From positions 1 to 33,895 of the forward strand of contig CANROX010000018.1 in assembly GCA_947632335.1 (NCBI GenBank): 33,895 nt of DNA, given 5' to 3'. The translations under genes and the position numbers were made by a program. Shown piece by piece: positions 18,670 through 33,895 of this stretch. The notes beneath the pieces were generated by a model. The model was not told the DNA's origin and searched no databases. It saw nothing but the letters and a program-made list of their open reading frames with translations. This stretch comes from an uncultured Clostridia bacterium. GTDB taxonomy: Bacteria > Bacillota > Clostridia > Oscillospirales > Acutalibacteraceae. How positions within the stretch are numbered: position 1 is the first letter of the stretch; every line of letters begins with the position of its first letter.

Positions 18670-19533
18670 ATGAGTGAAGAAAACAAAATACAAATATTTG
18701 AAGATAAAAAAATACGGACTGCGTGGAATGAGTCGGAGGAAGAATGGTATTTTTCCATAGTGGATGTAATTGAAGTTTTGACTGACAGTAACGAACCTCG
18801 TCGTTACTGGAGTGATCTTAAGAGAAAACTTAAAGCTGAAGGAGCAAACCAGTTGTACGAAAATATCGTACAACTGAAAATGCCATCTCCAAAGGATGGT
18901 AAAAATTACAAGACGGATGTTGCAAATACAGAACAGCTTTTGAGAATAATACAGTCAATCCCGTCACCAAAAGCTGAACCTTTTAAAATGTGGCTTGCAG
19001 AAGTAGGGCGTGAGAGAATAGATGAAACCATAGACCCTGAACTCACCATAGAACGAGCCCTTGAAACATATCTGAAAAAAGGATATACCAGAGAGTGGAT
19101 AAATCAAAGACTTCAGGCTATACAGGTGAGAAAAGAGCTTACTGATGAGTGGGATTCTCGTGGTGTAAAGCAGGGTGTAGAATATGCAATTCTGACTGAT
19201 GAAATCACAAAAGCGTGGTCAGGAATGACAACCCGGCAGTATAAAAATCTAAAAGGGCTGAAAAAGGAAAACTTGAGAGATAATATGAGTACCCTTGAGT
19301 TGGTACTAAATATGTTGGCAGAAGCTACCACAACTGAGATTTCCAAAGAGAAAAATCCTCAATCTTTTTCTGAAAATAGAAGTGTTGCAAAAGAGGGCGG
19401 CGAAGTCGCCGGAAATGCACGAAAAGATATTGAGGAAAGAACAGGAAAACCTGTTATTACTTCAAAAAATGCTGTTGATTTTTCAAACCTTATTTCCGAT
19501 GTAATAGAAAATGATTATGATAAAAATGAGTAA
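18670..19533 (+). CDS. BRO-N domain protein (phage antirepressor / DinD-like)
   Basis: A 287-residue protein. The N-terminal BRO-N domain (about 5-115) has IQIFEDKKIRTAWNESEEEWYFSIVDVIEVLTDSNEPRRYWSDLKRKL, and FKMWLAEVGRERIDE closes it. The helical C-terminal part (about 120-287), with LTDEITKAWSGMTTRQYKNLKGLKKENLRDNM and GGEVAGNARKDIEERTGKPV, resembles DinD-type proteins. BRO-N/antirepressor proteins bind DNA and are spread by phages and mobile elements; DinD is damage-inducible in E. coli. It has its own promoter and a GTGGGTG-type RBS. It may belong to the element or to the chromosomal flank. Confidence 0.85.
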   Translation: MSEENKIQIFEDKKIRTAWNESEEEWYFSIVDVIEVLTDSNEPRRYWSDLKRKLKAEGANQLYENIVQLKMPSPKDGKNYKTDVANTEQLLRIIQSIPSPKAEPFKMWLAEVGRERIDETIDPELTIERALETYLKKGYTREWINQRLQAIQVRKELTDEWDSRGVKQGVEYAILTDEITKAWSGMTTRQYKNLKGLKKENLRDNMSTLELVLNMLAEATTTEISKEKNPQSFSENRSVAKEGGEVAGNARKDIEERTGKPVITSKNAVDFSNLISDVIENDYDKNE

Positions 19534-19634
19534 AAACACCTTCTCCTTTTGAGTAAGCAGTTATAATACTGCCAACGAACTGTTCAGAAGGACTATTGAA
19601 GAATCTGTTATCATAGAAATTAATGTAAAATGAA

Positions 19635-19672
19635 ATGACCATAACCTAAAACTAACTTTGGGTTATGGTCAT
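19635..19672. terminator. Bidirectional terminator between convergent genes
   Basis: ATGACCATAACC (19635-19646) pairs perfectly with GGTTATGGTCAT (19661-19672), and TAAA/TTTG extends the stem with a G-U pair. It lies between the BRO-N gene (plus) and the kinase (minus). On the minus strand it is followed by TTCATTTTAC. Confidence 0.75.
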
Positions 19673-19696
19673 ATTGTCATCTGCAAATATTCTGTT

Positions 19697-20386
19697 CTAC
19701 ATAATGACTATATCATCACGGTTAATTGATTGTTTTAGTGAATCGGCTCTATAAGAGTTGATTATAAAGATATTCAGACCGTCAAAGCGGAATGTGATGG
19801 ATTTTGAGAAAGGTGTTTTTGTTTTGTTCTCGGTGATGATAAGGCTGACATTAGATTTTTTTAGTGTTTCAAAGGTAGTCATAAATCCGATACCGCTGCC
19901 ACCTGTGTCCTTGTGGGTTGTAACCCTTTCTAAACCTAATTTTGCAAGGGTATCGACTTCAAAATCCACGCCATTATCCATAATAGATATTTCGTAAATA
20001 TCATCATTCATTGTAATGGTAACCAGTATTTTACCCTTAATATCCTCACCGGAGTTGATTGCAATAATTGCATCCTTAATATGGTCGCATAGCAGGGTTT
20101 CTAAATCTGTTTGGGTAATTAGATTGTTTATAAGGTAATGTATATCTTGATTTATGATTAGGTTGAAATCTATGTTATGGGCAGTTGCCTTTATGTACAT
20201 ATTACTTAAAGCACCGTCAATCAAGGATATTCCCGTTGTAGGGAGGACTTTTGTGTTGTTTTGTTCTTTAACAATAAGGTCACTGCGTTCCTGTGCAAGG
20301 GTTAGAATTTCGTTCATAAGTTTTTCTTTTTCAGACGGATTGTCACAAACCTTGTACTTTGTAATTGTGTGTTGCAGGGAGGACAT
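19697..20386 (-). CDS. GHKL histidine kinase, C-terminal (ATPase) half of a frameshifted gene
   Basis: A 229-residue segment from ATG 20386. It contains the GHKL ATPase of AgrC-like sensor kinases: N-box region LLCDHIKDAIIAIN, G1 box ISIMDNGVDF and G2 box TTHKDTGGSGIGFMTTFETL. The frame is open upstream of this ATG to about 20455, where it joins the -1 frame of the membrane half. ATG 20386 has only AGGGAC as RBS, so it is unlikely to be a true start. The upstream residues EQLNNSNAFLSKIVHRDNHI look like the helix that normally carries the phospho-accepting histidine. See the membrane half at 20437-21153 for the joint. Confidence 0.8.
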   Translation of the reverse strand: MSSLQHTITKYKVCDNPSEKEKLMNEILTLAQERSDLIVKEQNNTKVLPTTGISLIDGALSNMYIKATAHNIDFNLIINQDIHYLINNLITQTDLETLLCDHIKDAIIAINSGEDIKGKILVTITMNDDIYEISIMDNGVDFEVDTLAKLGLERVTTHKDTGGSGIGFMTTFETLKKSNVSLIITENKTKTPFSKSITFRFDGLNIFIINSYRADSLKQSINRDDIVIM

Positions 20387-20436
20387 AATGTGATTGTCCC
20401 TGTGTACAATTTTGGAGAGAAAAGCGTTTGAGTTGT

Positions 20437-21153
20437 TCAGCTGTTCAATTTGTTGTTTTTTTCCGCAAGTGTGTTTTGGTAATGCTCGTCAGCCTTAGCT
20501 TGTAGCTTTTTTCTGTAGTGTTCGGTTATGCTTTTGCGAATCCATAGGAATAGACCGATGGATGATATTATTGCTCCAATAAAGAGAATAGTCATAAAAG
20601 TATCAGAAAAGTATAATTCGTTAGTTCCAATACAAGCAAAAACAAAGATAAATCCAGAAATGATTAATCCAATACCAAGATTATCTTTATTGTTGAGAAA
20701 CAGTGATGCATTGTTAAATCTTCTTGTTTTAATTAATCCAATTGTAAGAAGTTGATGTATTAATAATAATAATATTCCTGCCACTGTTTTACTATCATCT
20801 ATTTTAAACACATATCCAACAATACCGAAGATAATAATACTAATTGTTTTTGTACAATAGGATAAACCTATTGACATTATAGTTAACGGAATTAAATTAA
20901 TTGATTTTTTACCTGTGATAAATAAGGATAAGCAAATGAGAGTAATAAAAAGTACTCTTGATAAGGTATTGTTGTATTGATTAATAGTTGATGAGAAAAA
21001 AGATATTAGAATAGCTGTTAAACAAGATATTGATATTATCGTAAAGTTTGTTTTTATTTTCGATATTTTATTGAAAACAATAAAACAAGATATTGACAAA
21101 GATAAAAATGAAATAAATTTTTCCAAGTACTGTAACATCCAAATTATATCCAT
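20437..21153 (-). CDS. AgrC-like sensor kinase, N-terminal membrane half
   Basis: A 238-residue protein with six to seven membrane segments (about 10-27, 35-55, 60-80, 90-118, 125-145, 158-177, 183-203), followed by a basic helix KSITEHYRKKLQAKADEHYQNTLAEKN that leads into the dimerisation helix in AgrC-like proteins. It stops at TGA 20437-20439 soon after a run of seven A residues. If translation slips -1 on A AAA AAC (20461-20455), the frame continues directly into the ATPase half, giving a normal kinase of about 485 residues. The start ATG 21153 has GGAGGG at good spacing. It should sense a peptide from outside; the response regulator is encoded upstream on the same strand. Confidence 0.8.
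   Translation of the reverse strand: MDIIWMLQYLEKFISFLSLSISCFIVFNKISKIKTNFTIISISCLTAILISFFSSTINQYNNTLSRVLFITLICLSLFITGKKSINLIPLTIMSIGLSYCTKTISIIIFGIVGYVFKIDDSKTVAGILLLLIHQLLTIGLIKTRRFNNASLFLNNKDNLGIGLIISGFIFVFACIGTNELYFSDTFMTILFIGAIISSIGLFLWIRKSITEHYRKKLQAKADEHYQNTLAEKNNKLNS
20455..20461 (-). other. A AAA AAC slippery heptamer at the kinase frame joint
   Basis: Read on the minus strand, codons GAA AAA AAC place the heptamer A AAA AAC in exactly the zero-frame phase used by -1 ribosomal frameshift sites. The -1 frame then continues into the GHKL half, whereas the zero frame meets TGA five codons later. Either this is programmed frameshifting or a one-base change in the A-run (indel) has broken the gene. 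No clear pseudoknot is seen downstream. Confidence 0.55.
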
Positions 21154-21193
21154 AAAGCCCTCCGATGTTTACCAATACTATATCATAATAATG

Positions 21194-21224
21194 AAAAAAA
21201 GGGAATGCATGTTCAAGCATTCCC
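21194..21224 (-). terminator. Terminator between the peptide ORF and the kinase
   Basis: On the minus strand, GGGAATGC, loop TTGAACAT, GCATTCCC is followed by TTTTTTT: a classic rho-independent terminator. It sits 7 bases after the 13-codon ORF and about 40 bases before the kinase start, so it could serve as terminator of the peptide transcript or as an attenuator for the kinase. Confidence 0.85.
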
Positions 21225-21231
21225 TGAATAA

Positions 21232-21273
21232 TTAGAACCACCTTTTTAATACTCTTAAAATGTAATCCCACAT
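21232..21273 (-). CDS. 13-residue peptide ORF, candidate signal or leader peptide
   Basis: ATG (21271-21273) to TAA (21232-21234) encodes MWDYILRVLKRWF, a short amphipathic, cationic, aromatic-rich peptide. It has a very strong RBS, AAGGAGGG, seven bases before the ATG, and a strong terminator follows at once. These signals around such a small frame argue that it is really translated. It lies directly upstream of the AgrC-like kinase on the same strand. No AgrB-type processing enzyme is visible, so a linear peptide signal, a membrane-active peptide or an attenuation leader are all possible. It is too short for normal gene calling. Confidence 0.55.
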   Translation of the reverse strand: MWDYILRVLKRWF

Positions 21274-21331
21274 AAACGAACCCTCCTTCAAATTGCTTTT
21301 TACAATTCAAAGGTATCATTTATGTGGGATT
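21264..21331 (-). promoter_or_regulatory. Inverted repeat masking the peptide start codon
   Basis: TTTATGTGGGATT, which includes the start codon and first codons of the 13-residue ORF (21276-21264), is perfectly complementary to AATCCCACATAAA (21331-21319) upstream in the same transcript. The 42 bases between hold the AAGGAGGG RBS in the loop. The ATG is thus buried in a 13-bp stem, as in RNA elements that control translation. Confidence 0.6.
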
Positions 21332-21374
21332 TTTCTGATTAGAATAAGTAGTTGCTTTTTGTTGGAATATGCAG

Positions 21375-21565
21375 AAAAGGTGCCTAATACTAATACCTGA
21401 TAAAAAACAGCAATCTTTGCGGTCTAATTTCCAGAGTACAGCGTTGTCGTCCTTGCAAGGCGTCAGCCTTACGGCGTCCTCCGCCTTGTCCTCTGAAAAT
21501 TATCCTCGCAAATATAAGTCTGCTTTTTATCAGGTATTAGTATCAGCTAATGCCGGGCACCTTTT
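21375..21565. mobile_element. Palindromic MITE-like element 2
   Basis: A 191-base unit whose ends are inverted repeats: AAAAGGTGCC at 21375-21384 and its complement at 21556-21565, with a longer shared inner arm ATACTAATACCTGATAAAAA. The arms continue to pair imperfectly toward the centre (TTTGCG, TAATTT, CAGAG, ACA), and the middle has GGCGTC/GACGCC-type pairs. It has no ORF. It abuts the stop codon of the response-regulator gene exactly (21566) and thereby separates it from the peptide/kinase genes. It differs in sequence from the element at 16039-16201. Confidence 0.7.
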
Positions 21566-22344
21566 TTATAAATTCATCATTACCTTATCTGCATAATAAT
21601 ATATAAATTCTGTAATTGTTGGAACACCCTTCTTTGGGTTTATGTAGGTGGTGTAGTTTTTTTCAAGGGTTTCAATGTCTGTGTTTCGCCAGGTGTGATT
21701 AATGGCATTCTGCATTGCTCTTTCAACGCTTGCGTCAGTTTTGAGATATTTTTTTGCCACTATTGCACATATATTCGCCTGTTTGTTTTTGCAAGTGATT
21801 TCAATAGCGTCCCTAAGATATTGTCTGCCCTTTAACTTAGGGCTTACTCCAATAAGGTCAAGCTCTGTTGTGATTTTCTTTCTTAACCGTTCTTTGTATT
21901 CGTCGCCGACAGTTGCTTTTACATCTGCATTGTCCTTTTTGGCGTTTGTAGCACCTATACCCTTAATTGAGGAGAGAAAACCAAGTACCATATCAACGCT
22001 GTAATCCTGCTGATTCTTTGTGATTACAAAGTCTGCACCTAGATTTCTTACAATATTATGGGTTACTGAGCTTATGTTGTTTGTAACAACTAAAATAAAA
22101 GGTTTGAACGGAAATTCCAATTCCTTTAAGGCTTGAAGAAAGGCTATACCATTGCCAACTCCTTTGTGAAGTTCTAAATCCAATACTATTGCCTGTGGTC
22201 GGTACTCATTTACAAGATTAATCGCCTTGTCCACACTGCCGGTTGTATCAATAAGGCACAAATCCGGATAGTTCTTTACAGCGGATTTATATTCTTCGCA
22301 TATTTCATTCTCGTCCTCAATCACAATGAAATCCATTATTTTCA
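21566..22344 (-). CDS. Response regulator with a Spo0A-like DNA-binding domain
   Basis: A receiver domain (MDFIVIEDENEICEEY with the acidic pocket; phospho-acceptor Asp in AIVLDLELHKG; Lys in VITKNQQD) is followed by a linker and a C-terminal domain (about last 105 residues) resembling the Spo0A effector domain: LIGVSPKLKGRQYLRDAIEI...AIVAKKYLKTDASVERAMQNAINHTW...PTITEFIYYYADK. It would act on DNA when phosphorylated by the GHKL kinase encoded downstream. GTG 22344 is the best start (GAGGAG eleven bases ahead); the open frame extends to an ATG at 22399 but the added residues are not domain-like. Pairing an AgrC-type kinase with a Spo0A-type regulator, not LytTR, is notable. Confidence 0.85.
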
Positions 22345-22506
22345 CAATAACCACACTCCTCATTTGCATTATACAACAAAAACCAACACAAACCAACAAA
22401 AAATAATTAATTTTTTAAAATGAAAGAATTTTTTAATATTTTCTGTGCTTTTATACTCTAATTAGGTTATGATTTTGGGGGTGTAGGTACGAATAATTCA
22501 TTTGGA

Positions 22507-22863
22507 ATGTTTATCAGAGAAAGGCGAAAAGAGCATAAACTATCAGTACAAAAGCTTGCCGGTTTGGTTGGCATTTCTCCCGCATATTTATCAAGTATAG
22601 AAAGCGGTTGCCGTACAGCACCCACAGAAAAAATACTTGTAAAGCTTGCGGATGTGTTGATGATGTCCGACAGGGATAAAATTTTGATGTCTGACTTAGC
22701 GGCGGCATCAAAGAATAAAGGTATGGTTGCAACAGATATAGCTGATTATATATCCGAAAATAAATATGTGAGTAACGCAATCAGAACGGCAATAAATTTG
22801 CACATTGATAAAGATGATTGGGAGAACTTTATCGGCTTAATGGAGAAAAAGTATTTGAAATAA
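22507..22863 (+). CDS. XRE-family helix-turn-helix regulator
   Basis: A 118-residue protein with an N-terminal Cro/C1-type HTH: FIRERRKEHKLSVQKLAGLVGISPAYLSSIESGCRTAPTEKILVKLADVL (about 3-55), then a helical C-terminal dimer domain. ATG 22507 has a poor RBS; the better GGGGGTG (22477-22483) would suit a start a few codons earlier, where the frame reads ACG AAT AAT TCA TTT GGA, so the true start may be a non-standard codon. It diverges from the response regulator and precedes the Rhs gene, which it may regulate. Confidence 0.85.
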   Translation: MFIRERRKEHKLSVQKLAGLVGISPAYLSSIESGCRTAPTEKILVKLADVLMMSDRDKILMSDLAAASKNKGMVATDIADYISENKYVSNAIRTAINLHIDKDDWENFIGLMEKKYLK

Positions 22864-22891
22864 GGGTAGAAAATTCATATTCAACTTTTGG

Positions 22892-22927
22892 GCTATGTAC
22901 TTATAAAGTGCATAGCTTTTTGTTTTT
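22892..22927 (+). terminator. Rho-independent terminator after the XRE gene
   Basis: GCTATGTACTT, loop ATA, AAGTGCATAGC (11 pairs with one G-U) followed by TTTTTGTTTTTC. It isolates the regulator from the Rhs transcript. Confidence 0.88.
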
Positions 22928-23246
22928 CTCTACCATTAATTAAATATAGCAGGGAAAAGCATAAAATTTATTACAGTAGGATATATACCCTTATAATGTT
23001 TGATGTTCACAACTTTGTATGTGCTTTTTGGTATATTAATCACAATTTTTGACCTTTATTTTCTCAATATTGAATTTTATAAAATTATACCAAAAATATT
23101 TGACATATGTTAGAATATATATAGGTAATTCACTTATTCTCTGAATTAAGGATAATATAGGGTTACTGATTGTTGGAAGGTTGTTGATGTGATTAACACC
23201 AACAAATATATTGAAATGTAAAAGTTACTAAAAAGGGTTCTGACTT
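22928..23246 (+). other. A/T-rich leader region of the Rhs gene
   Basis: About 320 bases without a gene. It holds the direct-repeat copy at 23004-23070 (see below), a TTGACA at 23100-23105 without a good -10 box at standard spacing, and a small IR TTGTTGATGTGATTAACACCAACAA near 23180-23205. The RBS of the Rhs gene (AAAAGGG about 10 bases upstream) is ordinary. Promoter position is not decided. Confidence 0.4.
23004..23070 (+). repeat. Diverged direct repeat, copy A
   Basis: This stretch (TGTTCACAACTTTGTATGTG... onward) aligns without gaps to 33734-33800, about 50 of 67 positions identical by eye count. It lies upstream of the Rhs gene; copy B lies past the tyrosine recombinase at the window end. 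Confidence 0.55.
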
Positions 23247-26200
23247 ATGAAAAGGACAAACAAATCTATTAAAACAATATCAATCTTCCTGTGTATACTA
23301 ATGGCATTCTTGTTACCTGTGCAAGTGTGTGCAGATGTCACCGGTAATGAGGAAGAAGAATTAACTGCTGATTTTAGCAATATTTCTTCAGACGGAGAGG
23401 AAGTAGGAAATATAGTATCAGAAATCACGGGGGAAAGAACAGAATATTCAAAAACTTTTTTGCTGGACGATGGCACAAAAATGTTAGCAGAATATCCAGA
23501 ACCTATCCACTTTAAAAATGATAATAATAAATGGATAGAATATAATAATACTCTTGTTAATACAGTAGAAAAAGCTACAAGTGATGAGATAACAAATGAG
23601 TGCGATTATACCAACAAAAGAAGTGATATAGATATAACACTTTCATCTTCTACTAATAGTGATAATCTAATAATGCTCTCTGATGATAAATATAAAATTA
23701 GTTGGGGATATAAAAATGTAGATGATAGTGATATTAATATAATCACTCCAGATAATACCACGACTGGAAATGATAAGTTTACGAATTTAGAAAATTTATC
23801 AGCAGAGGCAGAATATGAAGAAGTATTTGATAATATAGATTTACAGTATAAAGTTTCTTCAACGGGTGTAAAAGAAAATATTATCCTAAATAATTCTGAT
23901 TCACAAAACGAATTTGAAATTATATATGATATTGATAAATTAATACCAAATCAAATAGATGATAGTACAATTATCCTTTACGATGGTAACAAGAAAGTGT
24001 ATAAAATTGATGCACCATATATGGTTGATTCAAAGGGTGTATCCAGCAAAAAGTTGAAGCTTGAAATTATAAGCAATAAGAATGGAAAATTACATATCAA
24101 ATTAATAGCAGACAAGGCATTTATCAATGATAATAGTCGTAGTTATCCTATTATTATTGATCCGGAAATAAGTTATATCAATAATTCTAATGTGTTTACA
24201 TACACGGGCATTATCGGAAATAATTTATCGTCATATCCACCATACTATCTGTCATCAAATGCATATAGTAATTGGAAAATAAATTCATTACCGGTTTTAG
24301 ATAATTCCCAAGTTATTATAAAAGCAACAGCAAACTTTAGTATTGGGAGTATTACCGGTACTGTGTCAAATGATAACCCTATTGTTGTGAATCTGTATGA
24401 TGGAAAAACAACATCTCCATACTATGACACGCAAGTTGAGGATTACTGTGCAATTTCAAGTGCAAACGACAAATTAGAATTTGATTTTACACGACTATTG
24501 AAAAATTGGATGAATGGCTCAACGAACCATGGTTTTGTAATTAAATCTAATAATATTGGTAATAGAATACTAAATATATCATACGGAGAAACTATACGCT
24601 CAGAAACAGAAGAAACCCGGTATATAAATTATCCAATGTATACAATAGTTTATAAAGATTTTGCCGGAACAGAAGACAGTATGTCATATCATACAGTATC
24701 AGCAGGAAGTAAAGCCCAGGTTAGTGTAAACGATTACCTTGGTAACCTTGTTGTGTCACAAGATTTGTACGAGAGCAAGGCAGCCAGAATGCCAATATCA
24801 TTGTCAGCAACATACAATAGCTTCGATTATGACACAAATTATACCGAATCAATGATGGGCTATGGTTGGAAGTTCTCTTTTAATCAGTATATTAAAACAA
24901 CAAACGCAACACTTCAAAACGCAGGATATGACTACGTGTACATTGATGAAGAGCGTACAAAACATTATCTGAAAGAAACAAGCAGTGGTTCAAATAAGTG
25001 GGAAGATGAGGAAGATTTAGGACTTACTCTGACATTCAAGGATGGTTTTAGTCTGTTGGATGACGGTTCACAGACCAAGAAATTCCGTGTGCCGTCAGAT
25101 GGTGGTCACCTTATGTATATCTACGAGAACGATAAACCAAACAACCACATTGGCTATGGCAGGGCAAGTGACGGAACAGTACAGTATATGTACGATTCCA
25201 CCAACTCTACAACTGTAAGTTATTCAACAGCCACAATAAACGGACAAAAGTATATCTCAACAATCAATCTTCCTAACTCTAAAAAGATATATCTCACTCA
25301 TACATTATCAAATGGCAAGGTGTTGTTGACAAAGGTAACTATGCCGGATGGCTCAATCTCACAATACGCCTATACAAATTCCGGAATGTTAAATTCTGTC
25401 AAGTATTTAGGTAAGGGGGATGGAGTCAATCAAGACGGTCAAACTGTAACCTTGCAGTATAACAGCAACGGCCAGGTTACCAATATTTCAGAAATCGGCA
25501 CCGGTGGAAACACAGGTAATTCCCTTACATATCAGTACAATAATGATAATACAACTCAGGTAACAGACATAAAGGGCAGAAGCGAAACATACACCTTTGA
25601 TAATGAGGGTAACAGAATATCTACACTAAATGCCAATGGATTCATTTCAACAGGTGGTGGAAGTGGTTTGACTGCCTCATCAGGTGCTGACTCTTTTACA
25701 AAGAATTATATAACAGAGTCATACGATTTTAAAGGAGTAGGTAGTGGATATTACTTTAAAAAAACCGGCGGAAGTATCAACTGTAATACAACTAAAAGGA
25801 CTAAGTACTTTGGAAGTAGCTCACTGCAAGTAACAAGTAATTCAACATCTTCATCAACCGGTGTAGAGCATCAGTTTGATGAAAGCGATTTTATTGGCAG
25901 TAATATAACATTTTCTGCCTATGTCAAAACCAATATTACAAGCACAGCAAACGCCACAGCAGGTGCATATTTGCAGATAAGTTGCTTTACACCGGATAAT
26001 TCCCGTCTTAATACCGTAAAAAGTTTTTATATAAACAGTACAGATGAGTGGCAACGTATAAGTGTAACAGCCGGAGTGCCGGATTCTGCACAGTATGTAG
26101 TTGTATCCTGTAACATAGGAAATGCGTTGGGAACAGCATATTATGATTGTCTGCAACTTGAAATGGGTACAAATGCAAATGATTACAATGCCTTACAGGA

Positions 26201-29200
26201 CAGTGATTTCAAGACAAACTCTACTTGGTATGATGAAAGTGATAGTTTAGTATCTGTCAACAGCGGTTCAGCCACAATTAACGGTTCCTCAGGGTTGACA
26301 ACCGGAACAACATATGAGGAAGAAACAGAGGATGATTCTGATACAGATACTGAAACACCACAGGAAACAACAGTGGTAACAGAACACGATAGTGTTGATA
26401 CTACAGACCCCTACGGTAATGTTATTCAGAGTGCAGAGGGAGAGTTCGAAAAAGTATATTATGTTATTAATCCTGACCAGGGTACAAATGATACAGATGG
26501 TTCTGATGATTCAGACGGTGAAGATACATCTACGGACACATCTCAGGATACCTCCGACGACTCAACCCGGCAATCAAACAATAAGTATATTTATCAAACA
26601 GTCAATGTAAAAACAGCAGATGTGTCTTTTAACTTAATCGGAGAAGCAAAGGCAAAATCTGTTCCATTAACAAACAGTCAGAGGACTTTCGGCATAGCGT
26701 TGAACATCTATTATCAAGATGCTGACGGTAAAGTTTCTACAACTCCGGAAGAACATTATCAGGAGTTTAATGTTTTTACAACTTCAAGACAAACAATTTC
26801 AACAACAGTTACCCCGGATGATACAAATTCTATCATTCACCATATTGATTTTGCGTTTGTTTATGGTTATAATAGTAATAGTATGACAGTATATAACGCA
26901 ATGCTTAATATTTCTGTAAATAAGGCAAATGTGATAAATACAGATATAGAGGAAGATGAAAACTCTGGTGGCGAAACAGAAGAAACGACAACAACTACAG
27001 AACCGGAAGATTCCGAAGATGATGTTATGCTTGGGGATATGGTTTCAGAAAACTTAGTTGACTCTCAACCTTTTATCAAAACAAACACAACATATGATTC
27101 AACCGGCAACTATGTAGTGTCCGAAACAGATGAACTTGGCAATACCACAAGCTACACCTACGACGGCAATGGCAACAAAGAGTCAATTACAGACGGTAAG
27201 GGAAATGTTGTAGAATATGAATATGATGACGCTGATAATGTAACCTCTATTTCAAGTGGAAATGCGTCCAACAGCTATACCTACGATTATCTTGGCAATG
27301 TCAGCCTGATAACTCACAATAACTTTTCATATCAATTTAATTATAATCAGTATAATAAGCTTATAGAAACAAAGGTAGGTTCAAATCAAATAGTCACAAA
27401 TGAATACGATTCAAATTACGGTAACCTCACTAGAACTACATACGGCAACGGTGACTATATCGACTACGAGTACGACCTTTACGATAATATTACAAAAATA
27501 AGCAGTAATACCGGAACAATAGCCACATACGAGTATAATAAAAAGGGTCTGATTTCCAGAATCGTTGATAACGAAAGCGGAGACATAACACGCTATTACT
27601 ACGATTTTAACGGGGAGGTGCAGGGTCAGTACATATTCAGCAACGAAGGTCGCCTTTCTAAGTCAATAAGCCATGACGAAAATGGAAATACTGTGGAAAA
27701 AACATCCGTTGGCGGAGTGTCCCGAATTATAACCAGCGGAACGGATGACAACGGAGAGGAATTTGTAAATTGCGACGGACTGCAAAGCACAAAGAAAACG
27801 GATGATTTTGGAAGAGTAACATCAATAAATACTTCTATAAATTCCGCCGCCCCATTTATAACAACATATAAATATGCTGGTGGAAGTGAAGAAAACTCCA
27901 CATCAAACACAGTCAATAGGTTAGAAAATCGCTATAAAGGCAATTCATACGCTGTATATAACTATACCTACGATAATAACGGAAACATTACACAGGTAAA
28001 GCTCAACGGAACTCTTATTAGCAAATATACATATGACAGCCTGAATCAGTTACATGAAGAGTATGATTATCTCAGAGGAAGATATATAAATTATACTTAT
28101 GATAACGGTGGTAACATAAAGCTGGCTCTGGAAAGTTACTTGAATTCATCGGGAACAATAGGCGGAGTGTGTGGAAGTAAGAATTATACCTACGGAGATT
28201 CTGTCTGGAAAGATAAGTTGACAAAGTACGGAACTTACAATATCACCTATGACGAGATAGGTAATCCATTAAATTACCGCAACGGAATAACCTTCTCGTG
28301 GAAAAACGGCAGATGGCTTGCAAGTACAACCTTGTCCGACAATACCACAGTAACTTATCAGTACAACGCTAGCGGTATGCGTACCAAAAAGATGATTGGT
28401 AGTACTGTAACAAATTATTATTACGATTCAAACAACAATCTGATAGGCTTAAAATCAGGTTCAGATGTAGCATTCTTCTACTACGGTGCAGACAATTCCC
28501 CTGTATCAATGAAGTACAACAATAATATGTACTACTATGTCAAGAACCTGCAAGGTGATATTGTAAAAATACTGGACTCAAACGGAGGTACAGTAGCCGG
28601 TTATTACTACGACGCATGGGGAACAATCACCCGCAAAACTGTGAATAACGCAACCATAGATACTTTGTCCCCATTCCGTTACCGTGGATATGTATATGAT
28701 ACCGATACAGGGTTATACTACCTACAAAGCAGATACTACGACCCGCAAACAGGTAGATTTATTAATGCTGATGATAATGAGTATATATGTGCTTCAGGTG
28801 CTGTTTTAAGTGCTAATATATTTATTTATTGCGAAAATAACACTATTTCTAGTTATGATCCAAATGGCAATTTTAGTATAAGGGGAACTATAAGAGATTT
28901 AGTAAGACTTATTTCGTGCAATGATTATTCTCTTAGTATCACTAAATCAAATAATAAATATATAAAAGAATTATTCAAAATTGCAGGATTTTATAAGGAT
29001 AAAAAGGGTATTTTCCACACATATCAAGATTGTTTACAACAGTATGGTGGTTATAACAGTTTATATGATATTATATTTGATTTAGGTACAAGTATGAAAG
29101 CTGTTAATTTCCCTTTTACTTGCAGAGCAAATAATAAAGAATATATCTTTTGGGCTTGGAAAGGTGACTACTTAAATCTTGGTGCGGGTGCTGAACTAGG

Positions 29201-29534
29201 TTTTTATAAAAGATTGAAAATATTAGGCTATAAAACTGACCATTGGGTAGTAGATCAAAACTTTAAGTTTAAAATGTCTATGGTGTTAAAGCACAAAGGC
29301 AAAAAAATCATTAACTATGCCCCTAAAAAACATAAATGGTGGTTGACTGGATTTAATCCAAATAAACAAAACGTCAAGGCAACAGATTTATCTGTAAAAT
29401 ATACTGTTTATTTTGAAAATCATAAGAATATTTTTAAATCTTTTTATGATACGTGGAAAAAACATAAAAAAATGGAAAAGTGGAAAAAATGGTCTTTCTA
29501 TCCCCAAAAATATAAAGCTGTTTTGAAATTTTAA
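23247..29534 (+). CDS. Rhs/WapA-like secreted polymorphic toxin with a DUF4474 tip
   Basis: A 2095-residue protein. Signal peptide 1-28 (hydrophobic core TISIFLCILMAFLLPV). A DNRLRE-like region covers about 310-450. Rhs/YD repeats occur at about 510-800 and again at 1278-1830 (for example YTYDGNGNKESITDGKGN). Between them are a lectin/carbohydrate-binding-like domain (about 830-980) and two acidic Asp/Thr/Ser linkers. The Rhs core ends PFRYRGYVYDTDTGLYYLQSRYYDPQTGRF (about 1810-1838). The variable tip contains a DUF4474 domain at about 1950-2070 (WAWKGDYLNLGAGAELGFY; WWLTGFNP). Such proteins deliver their tip to neighbouring cells. The gene is intact. The next gene starts at its stop codon, as expected for a toxin/immunity pair. 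The 3' core is duplicated downstream at 30183. Confidence 0.9.
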   Translation: MKRTNKSIKTISIFLCILMAFLLPVQVCADVTGNEEEELTADFSNISSDGEEVGNIVSEITGERTEYSKTFLLDDGTKMLAEYPEPIHFKNDNNKWIEYNNTLVNTVEKATSDEITNECDYTNKRSDIDITLSSSTNSDNLIMLSDDKYKISWGYKNVDDSDINIITPDNTTTGNDKFTNLENLSAEAEYEEVFDNIDLQYKVSSTGVKENIILNNSDSQNEFEIIYDIDKLIPNQIDDSTIILYDGNKKVYKIDAPYMVDSKGVSSKKLKLEIISNKNGKLHIKLIADKAFINDNSRSYPIIIDPEISYINNSNVFTYTGIIGNNLSSYPPYYLSSNAYSNWKINSLPVLDNSQVIIKATANFSIGSITGTVSNDNPIVVNLYDGKTTSPYYDTQVEDYCAISSANDKLEFDFTRLLKNWMNGSTNHGFVIKSNNIGNRILNISYGETIRSETEETRYINYPMYTIVYKDFAGTEDSMSYHTVSAGSKAQVSVNDYLGNLVVSQDLYESKAARMPISLSATYNSFDYDTNYTESMMGYGWKFSFNQYIKTTNATLQNAGYDYVYIDEERTKHYLKETSSGSNKWEDEEDLGLTLTFKDGFSLLDDGSQTKKFRVPSDGGHLMYIYENDKPNNHIGYGRASDGTVQYMYDSTNSTTVSYSTATINGQKYISTINLPNSKKIYLTHTLSNGKVLLTKVTMPDGSISQYAYTNSGMLNSVKYLGKGDGVNQDGQTVTLQYNSNGQVTNISEIGTGGNTGNSLTYQYNNDNTTQVTDIKGRSETYTFDNEGNRISTLNANGFISTGGGSGLTASSGADSFTKNYITESYDFKGVGSGYYFKKTGGSINCNTTKRTKYFGSSSLQVTSNSTSSSTGVEHQFDESDFIGSNITFSAYVKTNITSTANATAGAYLQISCFTPDNSRLNTVKSFYINSTDEWQRISVTAGVPDSAQYVVVSCNIGNALGTAYYDCLQLEMGTNANDYNALQDSDFKTNSTWYDESDSLVSVNSGSATINGSSGLTTGTTYEEETEDDSDTDTETPQETTVVTEHDSVDTTDPYGNVIQSAEGEFEKVYYVINPDQGTNDTDGSDDSDGEDTSTDTSQDTSDDSTRQSNNKYIYQTVNVKTADVSFNLIGEAKAKSVPLTNSQRTFGIALNIYYQDADGKVSTTPEEHYQEFNVFTTSRQTISTTVTPDDTNSIIHHIDFAFVYGYNSNSMTVYNAMLNISVNKANVINTDIEEDENSGGETEETTTTTEPEDSEDDVMLGDMVSENLVDSQPFIKTNTTYDSTGNYVVSETDELGNTTSYTYDGNGNKESITDGKGNVVEYEYDDADNVTSISSGNASNSYTYDYLGNVSLITHNNFSYQFNYNQYNKLIETKVGSNQIVTNEYDSNYGNLTRTTYGNGDYIDYEYDLYDNITKISSNTGTIATYEYNKKGLISRIVDNESGDITRYYYDFNGEVQGQYIFSNEGRLSKSISHDENGNTVEKTSVGGVSRIITSGTDDNGEEFVNCDGLQSTKKTDDFGRVTSINTSINSAAPFITTYKYAGGSEENSTSNTVNRLENRYKGNSYAVYNYTYDNNGNITQVKLNGTLISKYTYDSLNQLHEEYDYLRGRYINYTYDNGGNIKLALESYLNSSGTIGGVCGSKNYTYGDSVWKDKLTKYGTYNITYDEIGNPLNYRNGITFSWKNGRWLASTTLSDNTTVTYQYNASGMRTKKMIGSTVTNYYYDSNNNLIGLKSGSDVAFFYYGADNSPVSMKYNNNMYYYVKNLQGDIVKILDSNGGTVAGYYYDAWGTITRKTVNNATIDTLSPFRYRGYVYDTDTGLYYLQSRYYDPQTGRFINADDNEYICASGAVLSANIFIYCENNTISSYDPNGNFSIRGTIRDLVRLISCNDYSLSITKSNNKYIKELFKIAGFYKDKKGIFHTYQDCLQQYGGYNSLYDIIFDLGTSMKAVNFPFTCRANNKEYIFWAWKGDYLNLGAGAELGFYKRLKILGYKTDHWVVDQNFKFKMSMVLKHKGKKIINYAPKKHKWWLTGFNPNKQNVKATDLSVKYTVYFENHKNIFKSFYDTWKKHKKMEKWKKWSFYPQKYKAVLKF
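27714..27897 (+). repeat. Rhs internal segment P (donor copy of 32445-32628)
   Basis: This 184-base stretch of the Rhs coding sequence recurs at 32445-32628 in the same orientation with only two mismatches (TT for CC). It lies about 130 bases upstream of segment Q inside the same gene. Confidence 0.9.
28026..28777 (+). repeat. Rhs core segment Q (copy of 30183-30934)
   Basis: The 3' end of the Rhs core is repeated at a constant offset of 2157 bases. The first 313 bases (to 28338) are identical; beyond that scattered differences appear, and identity ends right after the DPxTGRF motif where the tips begin. A sharply identical first part suggests recent gene conversion or duplication. Confidence 0.93.
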
Positions 29535-29545
29535 TGGAGGTATAT

Positions 29546-30106
29546 ATGAAAAGGTTAGCGATAGTATTTTCTTCCATACTTATTATGATAATGTTTTTTA
29601 ATGGTTGCTCATTTCAAGGAAGTACTAAAGCAAAGGATATAATAGGTGATATTATAAATAGTGAATACAATAAATCACCGGAAGGGCGTTCAGAAGAAAT
29701 AACAAAAAAAATAGTAAAAGCTTTTGAAAATGAAGATGGTTCAAAGGTAAGAGAACTATTTGCAAAAAATATCATTAAGAAGTATGAAAACTTTGATAAA
29801 GATTTAAAAAATGCTTTCCATTATTATAACATTAACAATTTTAAACCAGAATATGAATATGTTGGTGAAGAAGCAACAACTGACAATGGAAATATAGTAA
29901 GATTTGTAAGCTACTCAGTAGATTTGATTTCAGATAATAACAGTTATACTATAACGCTAGATATTTGCACTGACGATGACAATGATAGTTCCAATATAGG
30001 TATATGGAGTTTATTTATTTCAAAAGGTGAATTTGTAGGTAATGAAAGCTATTATGATACCATGGAAAAATGTGAAAAAAATCGTTTTGGAATTTACTGT
30101 GTATAA
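29546..30106 (+). CDS. Lipoprotein, DUF5104-like; candidate immunity protein for the DUF4474 tip
   Basis: A 186-residue lipoprotein from ATG 29546 (GGAGG seven bases ahead; an in-frame ATG at 29534 overlaps the Rhs stop but lacks an RBS). The lipobox is MIMFFNGCS, with Cys at about residue 21. The mature part, with EGRSEEITKKIVKAFENEDGSKVRELFAKNI and a strand-rich C-terminus, resembles DUF5104 proteins. Immediate position after the Rhs toxin and outside location suggest that it protects the producer from the DUF4474 tip at the cell surface. No biochemical evidence is visible in the sequence. Confidence 0.75.
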   Translation: MKRLAIVFSSILIMIMFFNGCSFQGSTKAKDIIGDIINSEYNKSPEGRSEEITKKIVKAFENEDGSKVRELFAKNIIKKYENFDKDLKNAFHYYNINNFKPEYEYVGEEATTDNGNIVRFVSYSVDLISDNNSYTITLDICTDDDNDSSNIGIWSLFISKGEFVGNESYYDTMEKCEKNRFGIYCV

Positions 30107-30182
30107 TAATCCTTATGTGAATTCTTTATTTATTTGATTTGCTTAGTATAGTTGTATTCAGAGATTAAAAACTGGAGACCCT

Positions 30183-30934
30183 TATACATATGACAGCCTG
30201 AATCAGTTACATGAAGAGTATGATTATCTCAGAGGAAGATATATAAATTATACTTATGATAACGGTGGTAACATAAAGCTGGCTCTGGAAAGTTACTTGA
30301 ATTCATCGGGAACAATAGGCGGAGTGTGTGGAAGTAAGAATTATACCTACGGAGATTCTGTCTGGAAAGATAAGTTGACAAAGTACGGAACTTACAATAT
30401 CACCTATGACGAGATAGGTAATCCATTAAATTACCGCAACGGAATAACCTTCTCGTGGAAAAACGGCAGATGGCTTGCAAGTACAACCTTGTCCGGCAAT
30501 ACCACAGTAACCTATCAGTACAACGCAAACGGTATGCGCACCAAAAAGACGATTGGTAGTACTGCAACAAATTATTATTACGATTCAAATAACAATCTGA
30601 TAGGCTTAAAATCAGGCGCAGATGTAGCATATTTCTATTACGATACAGATAATAGTCCTATATCAATGAAGTACAACAATAATATGTACTACTATGTCAA
30701 GAACCTGCAAGGTGATATTGTAAAAATACTTGACTCAAACGGAAGTGCAGTAGCCAGTTATTACTACGATGCATGGGGAACAATTACCCGCAAAACTGTG
30801 AATAACACAACCATAGATACCCTGTCCCCATTCCGCTATCGTGGTTATGTGTATGATACCGATACAGGTTTATACTATCTACAAAGCAGATATTATGACC
30901 CTACAACAGGTAGATTTTTGAATGCGGATGTGTA
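30183..30934 (+). repeat. Displaced copy Q' of the Rhs core 3' end
   Basis: Copy of 28026-28777. It begins abruptly at TATAC with no start codon or promoter ahead; the frame is closed by TAG at 30144-30146. It carries the in-frame core up to DPTTGRF and then fuses to a new tip, giving a silent cassette. Confidence 0.93.
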
Positions 30935-31685
30935 CATCGACACCCATTCAGAAACGCCACTCAGCACAAATATGTTTGCTTATTGTGAAAGCAATTGCGT
31001 AAATAATACTGATAACACAGGTGAATGGTGGAGCACAATTAAGCAATATAGAAGATTTCGGGTTGATTCTGCAAAGTACCAAGCCGATATGTATGATGCC
31101 ATGGGATATAGGACAATGTATCAAGAATATCAGCGGAAGTATAATATCCGCAATATGAAAGCATCGGGTATTGCTAGTCGATATAGGTACAATAAAAAGA
31201 AGATAGCCCATTTTACAGATTATATTTATAATCAAATGAAAGATAAGAGCAAGTCTTTTTCATTTGGGAGAAAATCAACGGTTGGAAAAACGGGCTGTGT
31301 TGCTGTTGCCCTGTTTAATACAATGCGTAAGATAGGAAAGAATAAACATCTCGCCAATATAATAATGGAATTAGAGTTAAATAATTTGCTTGTAAATGAT
31401 GGTGCGTTTGGTGTTTCTGATAGTGGAGTAAATAAGTACATATTGAATAATGTAAAATATAAGCATTATACAAACTATTCAAAATATAAAAAGAATTCAA
31501 AGAAGTATAAGGCTGCGGTAGTATTAATAGATTATCCATCCGGTGGAGGACATGCTTTTTGTATAATTAGAAATTCAAAAAAGAAACTTAAATCGCTTAA
31601 TTATGGTCCTAACGACACTAAAGCTTGTAAGATTAATTGGAAAGATCTAAAATCAAAGTTTGACGAAGCATTTTGCGTAAAATAA
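30297..31685 (+). CDS. Orphan Rhs tip cassette with a papain-like cysteine-protease motif
   Basis: A 462-codon frame from TTG 30297 (no RBS; the Rhs homology in frame already begins at 30183), so it is probably silent until joined to the full Rhs gene. Residues 1-215 are Rhs core ending RSRYYDPTTGRFLNAD-type sequence. The rest is a new tip with VGKTGCVAVALFNTMRK (Cys334), GGGHAFCIIRN (His419) and LNYGPNDT (Asn435 or Asn439), the order and spacing of a Cys-His-Asn papain-like fold. This would be a secreted peptidase or transferase toxin. It is followed 18 bases later by its own candidate immunity gene. The domain call rests on motifs only. Confidence 0.7.
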   Translation: MNSSGTIGGVCGSKNYTYGDSVWKDKLTKYGTYNITYDEIGNPLNYRNGITFSWKNGRWLASTTLSGNTTVTYQYNANGMRTKKTIGSTATNYYYDSNNNLIGLKSGADVAYFYYDTDNSPISMKYNNNMYYYVKNLQGDIVKILDSNGSAVASYYYDAWGTITRKTVNNTTIDTLSPFRYRGYVYDTDTGLYYLQSRYYDPTTGRFLNADVYIDTHSETPLSTNMFAYCESNCVNNTDNTGEWWSTIKQYRRFRVDSAKYQADMYDAMGYRTMYQEYQRKYNIRNMKASGIASRYRYNKKKIAHFTDYIYNQMKDKSKSFSFGRKSTVGKTGCVAVALFNTMRKIGKNKHLANIIMELELNNLLVNDGAFGVSDSGVNKYILNNVKYKHYTNYSKYKKNSKKYKAAVVLIDYPSGGGHAFCIIRNSKKKLKSLNYGPNDTKACKINWKDLKSKFDEAFCVK

Positions 31686-31702
31686 AAAGAGAGGTAGATA
31701 CT

Positions 31703-32377
31703 ATGAAAAATAAACCTTGGGTGGTGGTGTTGTGCGCTATTGTTGCTATTGTATTGGTTGGGTTATGTATCTATTCTATACCAATATTCTCTACAAATAG
31801 TGAATCATCAGAGAAAAAAGTAACGGAGAAAATTACAATAATTGATGAAACTACAACGGAAATCACTACTAACGCCACCACAACAGAGAAAGAAACACAA
31901 GGGACTGAAAAAGATGAAAATAATGATATATGTGCTCCATTGAGTGATGAAAAGTATGGTGCTGAATATGAGAAAGTTTGGGAGAGTGAAGACGGCGTAA
32001 TAAGATTTTTGCTTAATTGTGATAAAGGACCGAGAGGATATGGAATTTATCAAGGTACATACAATTATGAAGCTGAAAGAACAGATGTTACTGTTTATGT
32101 TTTAAGTTTTAGCGATGGTCGGGGACCTGAAGATGAGGGTTATATTGAGGTATATAAGGAAATATTTGAAGATGGTTTTCCAGATGATCCAGATGCTGAA
32201 TATTTAGGTGAGCATACTTATCTTGCCGGTTATTACAAAATTTCCGAAGATGATAAATCATTCACTGTAACAGTTTCAGATATGGAGGAAGCCCTTAAGT
32301 ATAAGCGACCTAAAGATTCCATTGAATCAAAATATAAAAATGGGGACAATGTCGTTTTTCATCAAGTTTCCGAATGA
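31703..32377 (+). CDS. Membrane-anchored surface protein; candidate immunity for the orphan tip
   Basis: A 224-residue protein from ATG 31703 with GAGAGG ahead (a further upstream in-frame start at 31673 lies inside the toxin frame). One N-terminal membrane anchor, PWVVVLCAIVAIVLVGLCIYSIPIF, is followed by a Thr/Glu-rich linker (about 30-75) and an acidic outside domain of about 145 residues (YGAEYEKVWESEDGVIRFLLN...). I do not recognise the domain. Like the lipoprotein at 29546 it directly follows an Rhs tip and faces outward, supporting an immunity role against a toxin acting at the envelope. Its acidity would suit a basic toxin tip. Confidence 0.7.
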   Translation: MKNKPWVVVLCAIVAIVLVGLCIYSIPIFSTNSESSEKKVTEKITIIDETTTEITTNATTTEKETQGTEKDENNDICAPLSDEKYGAEYEKVWESEDGVIRFLLNCDKGPRGYGIYQGTYNYEAERTDVTVYVLSFSDGRGPEDEGYIEVYKEIFEDGFPDDPDAEYLGEHTYLAGYYKISEDDKSFTVTVSDMEEALKYKRPKDSIESKYKNGDNVVFHQVSE

Positions 32378-32444
32378 ATAATTGACCTCGTAATTATCTT
32401 TTTGTTGTCTTTAACTAAAATGATTTACTTGTAATTCATATCGT

Positions 32445-32645
32445 GGAGTGTCCCGAACCATAACCAGCGGAACGGATGACAACGGAGAGGAATTTGTAAA
32501 TTGCGACGGACTGCAAAGCACAAAGAAAACGGATGATTTTGGAAGAGTAACATCAATAAATACTTCTATAAATTCCGCCGCCCCATTTATAACAACATAT
32601 AAATATGCTGGTGGAAGTGAAGAAAACTACATATTGTACCCATAG
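32445..32645 (+). pseudogene. Rhs fragment P' (remnant)
   Basis: Bases 32445-32628 copy 27714-27897 of the Rhs gene with two mismatches. A 65-codon frame starting GTG 32448 ends soon after the copy stops (TAG 32643-32645). It has no RBS or start of its own. It is a leftover of a past rearrangement of tip cassettes and provides a direct repeat for recombination with the full gene. Confidence 0.9.
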
Positions 32646-32700
32646 CAAATTGTCCCTATTCTATTTATCTATTACTACAAAGCCGAATAAAATATCCTGA

Positions 32701-32734
32701 AAGCCTTGTGAGCAAAAACTCACAGGGCTTTTCT
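32701..32734. terminator. Terminator between the Rhs remnant and the recombinase
   Basis: AAGCCTTGTGAG, loop CAAAAA, CTCACAGGGCTT (12 pairs with one G-U), followed by TTCTC on the plus strand. On the minus strand it follows the recombinase stop codon directly. Confidence 0.75.
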
Positions 32735-33669
32735 CATATCCGAATTTCCAGTTTGTTCCTCGGATGCTTGGCAGAAAGGATGTTTTTCTGCTTGTTAATG
32801 CTGGTATGAGTGTAAATCTGCGTTGTGGTAATAGAACTGTGCCCAAGCATTTGCTGAATATATCTGATGTCAACATCCTCTTCAAGCAGTAGAGTTGCAA
32901 AGGAATGGCGGAACATATGTGGTGTAATATGAATAGAAACCCCTGCACCTTTTGAGTAAGAATTTATCATATTGCGAACCGACTGCTCCGAAAGTCTGTT
33001 GCACAATCTGTTAATAAAGAAATAGTCATAATTTTTAAGTTCAAAATCAAATTCCCTTCGGTATTCGTCCAGAAGATTCTGGACATTTTTATTGCAAATT
33101 TGAATCAGGCGTTCTTTTGACCCTTTGCCATAGATTTTAATTATGTAGTCGCTGAAATTAATTTGTTTGTTGGTAAGACTGCAAAGCTCAGAAATTCTCA
33201 TTCCGGTGGCAAATAGCAATTCAAAAATCAGCACATTGCGTAAAGCTGTTTTTCTGCCATAGGATGTAGCTTGCCTTTTTCGTACCATATAGGCGTAGTT
33301 CATAATTTTTTCAATAGTTTTCAGAGGAATAGTCTTTGGTAGGATAAATGGTTCCTTGTATTTTATCTGAATTTTGTGAAATGGATTAATTTCTATAATT
33401 TCTTCCACTTCAAGATAATGAAAGAAAGCCTTTAGAGAAGCGATTTTCCTCTTAACACTTTTAGGCTTTAGGGTGTTGTGCAATGAGTCTATGTAATTTT
33501 CAATAGAATTTTTGCTTATCCATAATAGATTATTTTCACAAATAAACTCTGTAAACTGCCTTAAATCTACTGAGTAGGATTTTATAGTTTTATAGTCAAG
33601 ATTTTTCCTTTTAGCACAAAATTGCAGATATTTTTGTATTTCCACCGTTATGTTAATATTGTTTTCCAT
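32734..33669 (-). CDS. Tyrosine recombinase (XerC/D-like integrase)
   Basis: A 311-residue phage-integrase-type recombinase. N-terminal SAM-like DNA-binding domain about 5-95. Catalytic residues: Arg in FATGMRISELCSL, Lys in the KIYGKGSKERLI hairpin, HMFRHSFATLLL with His-x-x-Arg, and GHSSITTTQIYTH with the second His and the nucleophile Tyr. The ATG at 33669 has AAGGAG eight bases ahead. It could move the Rhs block, or the tip cassettes, by site-specific recombination; direct repeats around the block are present (23004 and 33734), but no core sequence is proven. Confidence 0.9.
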   Translation of the reverse strand: MENNINITVEIQKYLQFCAKRKNLDYKTIKSYSVDLRQFTEFICENNLLWISKNSIENYIDSLHNTLKPKSVKRKIASLKAFFHYLEVEEIIEINPFHKIQIKYKEPFILPKTIPLKTIEKIMNYAYMVRKRQATSYGRKTALRNVLIFELLFATGMRISELCSLTNKQINFSDYIIKIYGKGSKERLIQICNKNVQNLLDEYRREFDFELKNYDYFFINRLCNRLSEQSVRNMINSYSKGAGVSIHITPHMFRHSFATLLLEEDVDIRYIQQMLGHSSITTTQIYTHTSINKQKNILSAKHPRNKLEIRI

Positions 33670-33895
33670 AAAATATTCTCCTTATCATTTGATAAGTTAA
33701 TTATCCTACAAAACAAGCAATATTTCTATACAGTGTTCACATTTTTGTATGTATTTTTTGGTATAATCCGCACAAATATCCACCTTAGATTTCTCTATGT
33801 CGAAATGTGAGAAAATATGGCATAATAAGTTGTAAAGTGATAAAATATAAATAGATGTAAAAGGGTTGTCCAATAGAGGATAACTTACAATTATC
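33670..33895. other. Region upstream of the recombinase, holding direct-repeat copy B
   Basis: No gene seen. It contains the repeat copy B (33734-33800, aligning to 23004-23070) and a TGTCGAA heptamer (33798-33804) that equals the Spo0A-box core. After the repeat, some similarity to the Rhs leader seems to continue (GGATAA, TTAC pieces), so the window end may be the leader of another Rhs-like gene that lies beyond the window. Confidence 0.45.
33734..33800 (+). repeat. Diverged direct repeat, copy B
   Basis: Matches 23004-23070 without gaps, about 50 of 67 positions by eye count, the best block being TGTTCACA..TTTGTATGT..TTTTTGGTATA. Together with copy A it brackets the Rhs block and the tyrosine recombinase. 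Confidence 0.55.

Follow-up and report, generated by a model that had tools for sequence, protein, structure and literature searches.

The question raised by this locus is why a toxin gene should be followed, on the same strand, by a second copy of the end of its own core joined to a different toxin tip. The gene is an Rhs gene on contig CANROX010000018.1 (assembly GCA_947632335.1) of an uncultured Clostridia bacterium, which we infer to belong to the Ruminococcus bromii clade. The window is the entire contig (C18, 33,895 bases) of a 1.78-Mb genome in 68 contigs, and the locus is read here, with a probability of about 0.85, as a C-terminal displacement array belonging to an Rhs gene of the secreted, WapA-like kind. 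The evidence consists of the arrangement of the repeats in the window, the distribution of differences within the main repeat, and the recurrence of the same arrangement in related genomes.

Live gene, orphan cassette and repeats

The live Rhs gene (23247-29534, forward strand, 2095 amino acids (aa)) encodes a hydrophobic N-terminal segment and, by profile scans, DUF6531 (24.9 bits, cut-off 24.1), RHS repeats (RHS/YD repeats, PF05593, 98.6 bits, cut-off 22), the Rhs-associated core (TIGR03696, 62.2 bits, cut-off 32.5) and, at its end, tip 1. By its RHS repeats and Rhs-associated core the product is a predicted Rhs/WapA polymorphic toxin, and its N-terminal hydrophobic segment looks like a signal peptide by eye. 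Among the nine window proteins scanned against Pfam no VgrG, PAAR or EagR was recognised, the remaining genome not having been searched for them.

The region 24000-33895 was screened with a repeat finder for repeats of at least 40 nucleotides (nt), and only two direct-repeat families, Q/Q' and P/P', and no inverted repeat pair were obtained. Q, the end of the Rhs core (28026-28777, forward strand), and Q', the core repeat of the orphan cassette (30183-30934, forward strand), were aligned in register over 752 nt at a spacing of 2157 nt with 46 mismatches (ungapped count). The first 313 bases are identical, all 46 mismatches lie beyond base 313 where the two copies are about 10% diverged, and the chance of such a distribution under an even spread is about 2 in 10^11 by our own arithmetic. 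When the DNA of the 1.78-Mb genome was searched with Q, only the two copies Q and Q' were matched. One reading frame is common to the Rhs start at 23247, Q at 28026 and Q' at 30183, and the frame of Q' and tip 2 is open from 30183 to 31685, with TTG at 30297 as the only start in the list of open reading frames (ORFs). The first-pass annotation had described Q and Q' as direct repeats with identical first 313 bases and had placed Q' in frame with tip 2, and both statements were borne out by the alignment and the open frame, respectively. It had also let the tips follow on Q; the tips proper start about 31 codons past Q, behind a DPNG or DNTG motif (by eye).

Tip 1 (28869-29534, forward strand) carries a DUF4474 domain (PF14751, 61.0 bits, cut-off 23), a match that was obtained in a separate scan of the tip and is absent from the listing for the scan of the whole 2095-aa protein; no match of tip 1 to solved structures was found by sequence. 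The gene behind it (29534-30106, forward strand) is the putative immunity 1, lipoprotein-like by eye and matching DUF5104 (PF17117, 47.3 bits, cut-off 27). In the second cassette, tip 2 (31026-31685, forward strand) is followed by the putative immunity 2 (31703-32377, forward strand), which is membrane-anchored by eye and has no family above cut-off. As judged from its composition, namely a core fragment downstream on the same strand, another tip and a following gene at 31703-32377, Q'-tip 2 is an orphan Rhs tip. Both tips probably act at the cell envelope, since both immunity proteins look extracytoplasmic by eye.

The second repeat family was brought out by the repeat finder and by alignment. 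P, a stretch of the Rhs core (27714-27897, forward strand), is duplicated at P', an isolated core relic (32445-32628, forward strand), and 2 of 184 positions differ. At both of them P' carries the bases of the relative G100, so that P' appears to be a copy of an earlier core, and it looks like an older relic of the Rhs core. Recombination between P and P', by which the whole set would be removed according to the first-pass annotation, would give no usable gene because a stop codon lies within ten codons after P'; the product would be a tipless, truncated gene, and P/P' was rejected as a useful excision pair. From the tip-switch reading of the first-pass annotation, the orphan tip and immunity gene in frame behind a core repeat and the 313-nt identity are retained, with added support from the recurrence of such arrays (below), and the role of P/P' is given up.

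Mosaic structure of the core repeat

Within the window, Q and Q' differ at 0 of 313 sites and then at 44 of 438 aligned sites, whereas between the Q of the window and that of G100 the counts are 22 of 312 for the first part and 41 of 439 for the second. The tip-side half of Q/Q' has thus diverged at the between-species level while the other half is identical, by which past recombination or gene conversion between the live and orphan core repeats is supported. A repeat that is first identical and then diverged is a natural trace of exchange, by recombination or by conversion, between the cores of a live and an orphan copy. Neither 3' half was singled out as the resident one by the distances to G100: from the first G100 copy Q differs at 41 of 439 sites and Q' at 45 of 439, and from the second copy Q differs at 50 of 439 and Q' at 48 of 438.

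The longest identical run was beyond chance in seven of 14 copy pairs from other loci (p 0.0015 or less), three of them from G180 (up to 1169 nt), two from G179 (up to 1010 nt) and one each from G059 and G054, and p was about 0.017 in two further pairs (one from G103, and G029); these values come from a test that is inflated by diverged alignment ends. The live core was also compared with the downstream DNA in 35 loci already known to hold copies, with a duplicate of G103 left out, and the longest identical tract reached at least 100 nt in 15 of them, the window being the sixth of the 35 loci by this measure; in Ruminococcus sp. zg-924 the tract was 606 nt long. On the opposite strand, used as a control in the same 35 loci, the identical tract was never longer than 18 nt.

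The left ends of 17 orphan fragments from six loci were taken as BLAST alignment ends, which are imprecise, and fell at 17 positions, between 96 and 1248 nt upstream of the end of Q, with two pairs lying within 1 and 7 nt of each other; no common motif was seen by eye at these ends. The scatter argues against a site-specific mechanism and fits homologous recombination together with non-specific joints. A fixed entry site for the cassettes was rejected on the same spread, and a strict order in which older orphans are shorter was rejected by eye, being broken by G059 and G054.

Recurrence of the arrays in related genomes

For the first set of loci, 161 genomes of the genus were searched and 50 of them matched Q at E 0.001; 47 loci were used, namely the window and 46 loci hand-picked from the matches, one of which (G054) is from another family. 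Copies were counted if they reached residue 228 or beyond of the 250 residues of Q, which gave 85 copies in the 47 loci. Of these, 11 belonged to long genes, in which over 1300 residues precede the end of Q, 57 were orphan and 17 were open at a contig edge, the orphan class taking in a few truncated genes (G100:C41) and weak tipless copies (G087:C88). At least two cassettes were present in 21 of the 47 loci, and up to six (one live, five orphan) in the one-contig genome G059. The orphan core fragments vary in length and belong to the core type of their gene, as is expected of displacement, and many of those in the relatives are short or broken by stops. At the orthologous locus of G100 a different tip stands behind the same core, and a further tip is on a second contig, presumably linked to the first. 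As a separate observation, G179 holds 15 matches to Q on the four contigs L113, L114, L115 and L116 (C62, C5, C20, C55), and two copies on L114 are identical over 1010 nt.

The second set was drawn from 84,980 named genomes, in which the best 80 of 185 relatives gave 78 loci, a few of them shared with the first set (e.g. G103), and at least 3 kb of downstream DNA was present in 57. A downstream core copy on the same strand was found in 30 of these 57 loci, with 66 to 100% identity to the core of its own locus, and on the opposite strand in none of the 57. By their record titles these loci are mostly from Clostridia and Bacilli, and the 30 include the cultured species Clostridium manihotivorum, C. 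bornimense, Acetanaerobacterium elongatum and Haloimpatiens lingqiaonensis. This suggests that displacement arrays are general to Rhs loci in Clostridia and Bacilli and are not an enterobacterial speciality.

These counts bear on the idea that the array is an artefact of assembly, in which alternative versions of the live gene, coming from a mixed population, were joined end to end. As such an artefact would have it, a typical short read is shorter than the 313-nt repeat, and in G100 two contigs break off within that repeat; the same order is nevertheless found in G059, a genome of one contig, on a single contig of G180 and in 30 of the 57 named loci, and the artefact is regarded as very unlikely.

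Pairing of tips with second genes

The tip and the ORF following it (the longest of at least 60 aa starting close behind the tip) were taken for 66 of the 85 cassettes. Similar second genes (E 0.001) were found in 36 between-genome pairs, and the tips were similar too in all 36; with 92 tip pairs in the set, at most 12 matches were given by 5000 permutations, none of which reached 36. These values support the view that tip and second gene travel together in these arrays. Neither immunity protein of the window is in the 36 pairs, so that the immunity pairing for the window's own tips rests on position.

For 37 of 70 tips there was no relative in the set at E below 1e-6. Six of 11 live tips, tip 1 among them, had an orphan relative in another genome (E 0.001), the pair of tip 1 with the G177 orphan being a weak one (34% over 56 aa). 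DUF4474 was present in only two of the 161 genomes of the genus, G000 (live, the present locus) and G177 (orphan region). Of the three matches recorded in G177, two are pieces of one tip, the stop-interrupted one behind the second copy, and the other is 1.3 kb past the third copy. Tip 2 is a distant member (24% to the G001 orphan, 29% to the G150 live tip) of a family with a live member in G150 and orphan ones in G179 and G001; the G150 (live) and G179 (orphan) members share 71% in the tip and 68% in the second gene. An overlap of the live and orphan tip pools is supported by these relationships.

The same relationships bear on an origin in which the end of the gene was duplicated in tandem and the tips then diverged, which would leave direct repeats in tandem order as they are seen here. 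No match between tips 1 and 2 was obtained at E 1e-3 or better, and the two tips are in different families, each with relatives in other genomes, and such an origin is scarcely credible.

Predicted fold of tip 2

No Pfam family was found above cut-off for tip 2. It was aligned with ten relatives (three array tips and seven stand-alone proteins picked from search matches, 11 sequences in total), and nine columns were invariant, including C91, H176 and N192. The structure model of tip 2 had a mean predicted local distance difference test (pLDDT) score of 75.7, with the first 32 residues poor, and four matches in the PDB reached E 0.001 by Foldseek. The best one was the contact-dependent inhibition (CDI) toxin CdiA-CT of Citrobacter rodentium (PDB 8ssm, E 2.3e-4, template modelling (TM) score 0.40 by query), further matches within this limit were bacterial JOS ubiquitin proteases, and a papain-like cysteine protease toxin/immunity pair (PDB 9l5u) came next at E 1.3e-3. 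The identity of tip 2 to the papain-like toxins 8ssm and 9l5u is only 11-12%, with TM-scores of 0.40-0.44 by query length; the tip 2 family is likened to them by the matched fold and by its invariant Cys, His and Asn. Tip 2 is, on this model, most likely a papain-like cysteine protease, with the activity as a prediction.

Proposed course of displacement and re-attachment

In the displacement array as we understand it, the live gene would deliver tip 1, against which immunity 1 would protect, and Q'-tip 2-immunity 2 would be a displaced tip cassette, which would be silent because it is without its own start and export parts; P' would be the remainder of another core fragment. To the anatomy and mosaic sequence observed here an entry route is added by inference: new cassettes would come in through homologous recombination in the core at one end and through a non-specific joint at the other, and the older tip would be pushed downstream. 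The two Q copies would have become identical over 313 nt since, or in, the displacement event and would then be a substrate for homologous recombination, for which 313 nt of perfect identity is ample. By a crossover between Q and Q', tip 2 would be brought in frame behind the expressed core, with loss of tip 1 and immunity 1; if the Salmonella model applies, such an event would be tolerated mainly once the locus had been duplicated. It is plausible on this analysis that tip 2 can be re-attached by homologous recombination. That this takes place at a biologically useful rate is held only tentatively, with the odds somewhat against it, and displacement, with incoming tips taking the place of old ones, accounts for the data no less well than re-attachment does.

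Several points weigh against this account. The longest identical run was within chance in five of the 14 copy pairs (p 0.12 or more; two from G059, two from G103, and G177), and in 20 of the 35 arrays there was no identical tract of 100 nt between the live core and the downstream DNA. The orthologous Rhs gene of G100 (L089, 7379-10344) is without its first approximately 1200 codons and is joined directly behind a helix-turn-helix (HTH) gene, which shows that plain decay of the locus is possible. Part of the 313-nt identity could have arisen in the assembly of a repeat, and the sole reason for the retention of tip 2 may be its immunity gene.

The last point, in its full form, is a rival to the switch and not to the array: the orphan would be a displacement relic kept for the protection by immunity 2 against neighbours, and would never be re-attached. 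It has close to an even chance in our estimate, in keeping with the short or stop-interrupted orphan cores of many relatives and with the 20 arrays just mentioned, and it is opposed by the intact frame of tip 2 with the family Cys, His and Asn and by the 313 identical nt of Q/Q', which decay alone would not give unless the displacement was very recent.

Displacement with occasional re-attachment would have consequences of its own. If re-attachment occurs in this clade, strains of common gut species could swap one contact weapon for another without any gene transfer, and earlier weapons could be read off from the array. It is conceivable, and on balance unlikely, that the secreted Rhs genes of gut Clostridia maintain a heritable archive of earlier weapons and antidotes, from which cells are re-armed by core recombination often enough to shape competition, the tip identity at a locus being then a fast and reversible trait.

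The neighbouring recombinase module

An Xer-like recombinase gene (32734-33669, reverse strand) ends about 100 nt from P', and the contig ends inside a 17-nt dyad site (33879-33895). Fifteen close-family contexts of the recombinase, the window included, were compared, and at least 4 kb upstream of the gene was present in ten. An exact inverted pair of 16-30 nt was found in eight of these ten, with the far copy 2.5-6.3 kb upstream of the recombinase; in L079 the longest inverted pair is not the dyad itself, yet the dyad is paired too. On the other side of the gene, used as a control with almost no DNA there for two contexts, the inverted pairs were at most 13 nt. Five of the 15 contigs end within 300 nt upstream of the recombinase gene. 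The cargo varies across the four modules read: a ThsA-like SIR2-STALD gene (332 bits) facing a TIR gene in L079, an ATP-grasp and an AAA gene in L080, an ATP-grasp gene and a gene of no family in L086, and a radical SAM/ATP-grasp gene with a pentapeptide protein in L076. The module has the appearance of a phase-variable slot that takes defence genes among others, and the recombinase appears to invert the adjacent module, unrelated to the Rhs array. In the literature on such a recombinase slot, only work on the serine recombinase PinQ surfaced.

Site-specific switching of the Rhs tips by this neighbour would draw on its nearness to P' and on the paired inverted sites that flank the recombinase in relatives. 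It is highly improbable, as the only occurrence of the site motif (up to one mismatch) in the window is at 33879-33895, P and Q being without it, as the orphan left ends are scattered without a common motif by eye, and as an Rhs gene is nearby in only three of the 15 contexts (4.5 to 34 kb each; window included). The short recombinase site that a shufflon has at each joint was not found, and the neighbouring recombinase was rejected as the switch.

Some further observations were made on the surrounding region (18670-33669). The recombinase stands tail to tail with a dinD-like gene in eight of 12 related contexts with downstream DNA (by eye), and in the window a 13-kb block (kinase, Spo0A-like regulator, HTH, Rhs array) lies between dinD (18670-19533) and the recombinase; a 98-nt recombinase-like remnant (19523-19620) adjoins dinD. 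HTH and Spo0A-like genes lie upstream of the Rhs gene. The sensor-kinase gene (19697-21153, reverse strand) is split into two ORFs, and by comparison with the 484-aa kinase of G100 its C-terminal part is 93% and its N-terminal part only 40% identical, as if the sensor half had been exchanged. A large serine recombinase gene (17038-18600, forward strand) also adjoins dinD and resembles CcrB and XisF, below curated cut-offs; an integrative element may lie near 17038-18600.

Comparison with known systems

No array arrangement of this kind was recognised for Ruminococcus or Clostridia Rhs in the literature as represented by titles and abstract openings, mostly from outside the subscription journals. 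The newness outside Proteobacteria that was implied by the first-pass annotation was nevertheless too strong. In Streptococcus suis, truncated WapA duplications with immunity genes were described as Rhs orphans (PMC12704120), and in Listeria seeligeri truncated lrhA genes were suggested as a source of variation (PMC10327511). The S. suis loci are like the present one in being Gram-positive, in the Sec-exported Rhs/WapA protein and in the downstream truncated core with another tip and an immunity gene; SecF-like and SrtB genes lie upstream there, as opposed to the HTH and Spo0A-like genes of the window, and the word "recombination" is absent from the main text of that study as available (PMC12704120).

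In Enterobacteria, Rhs tips are displaced into downstream arrays, for which homologous recombination with a circular intermediate was proposed (Jackson et al. 2009, PMC2935791), and displacement into downstream arrays was also described for bee symbionts (PMC8125069). As far as the enterobacterial arrays are set out in that paper (PMC2935791), they are alike in the live gene followed by dissociated tips and in core fragments that differ in length and share the core type of the gene. The present array differs from them in its secreted WapA-like Rhs, in its clostridial host, in the absence of parts of a type VI secretion system among the window proteins scanned, and in that the mosaic within the repeat was measured against a relative.

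For Salmonella LT2, re-attachment of an orphan Rhs tip was supported by Southern blot and quantitative PCR (qPCR) of the junction (Koskiniemi et al. 2014, PMC3967940), whereas re-attachment in the window is a prediction from the sequence. According to the part of that work concerned with the repeats, the main and orphan genes there share 522 bp at 95% identity, as compared with 752 nt at 94% in the window, 313 of which are identical, and in both systems the crossover deletes, or in the window would delete, the main immunity gene (PMC3967940).

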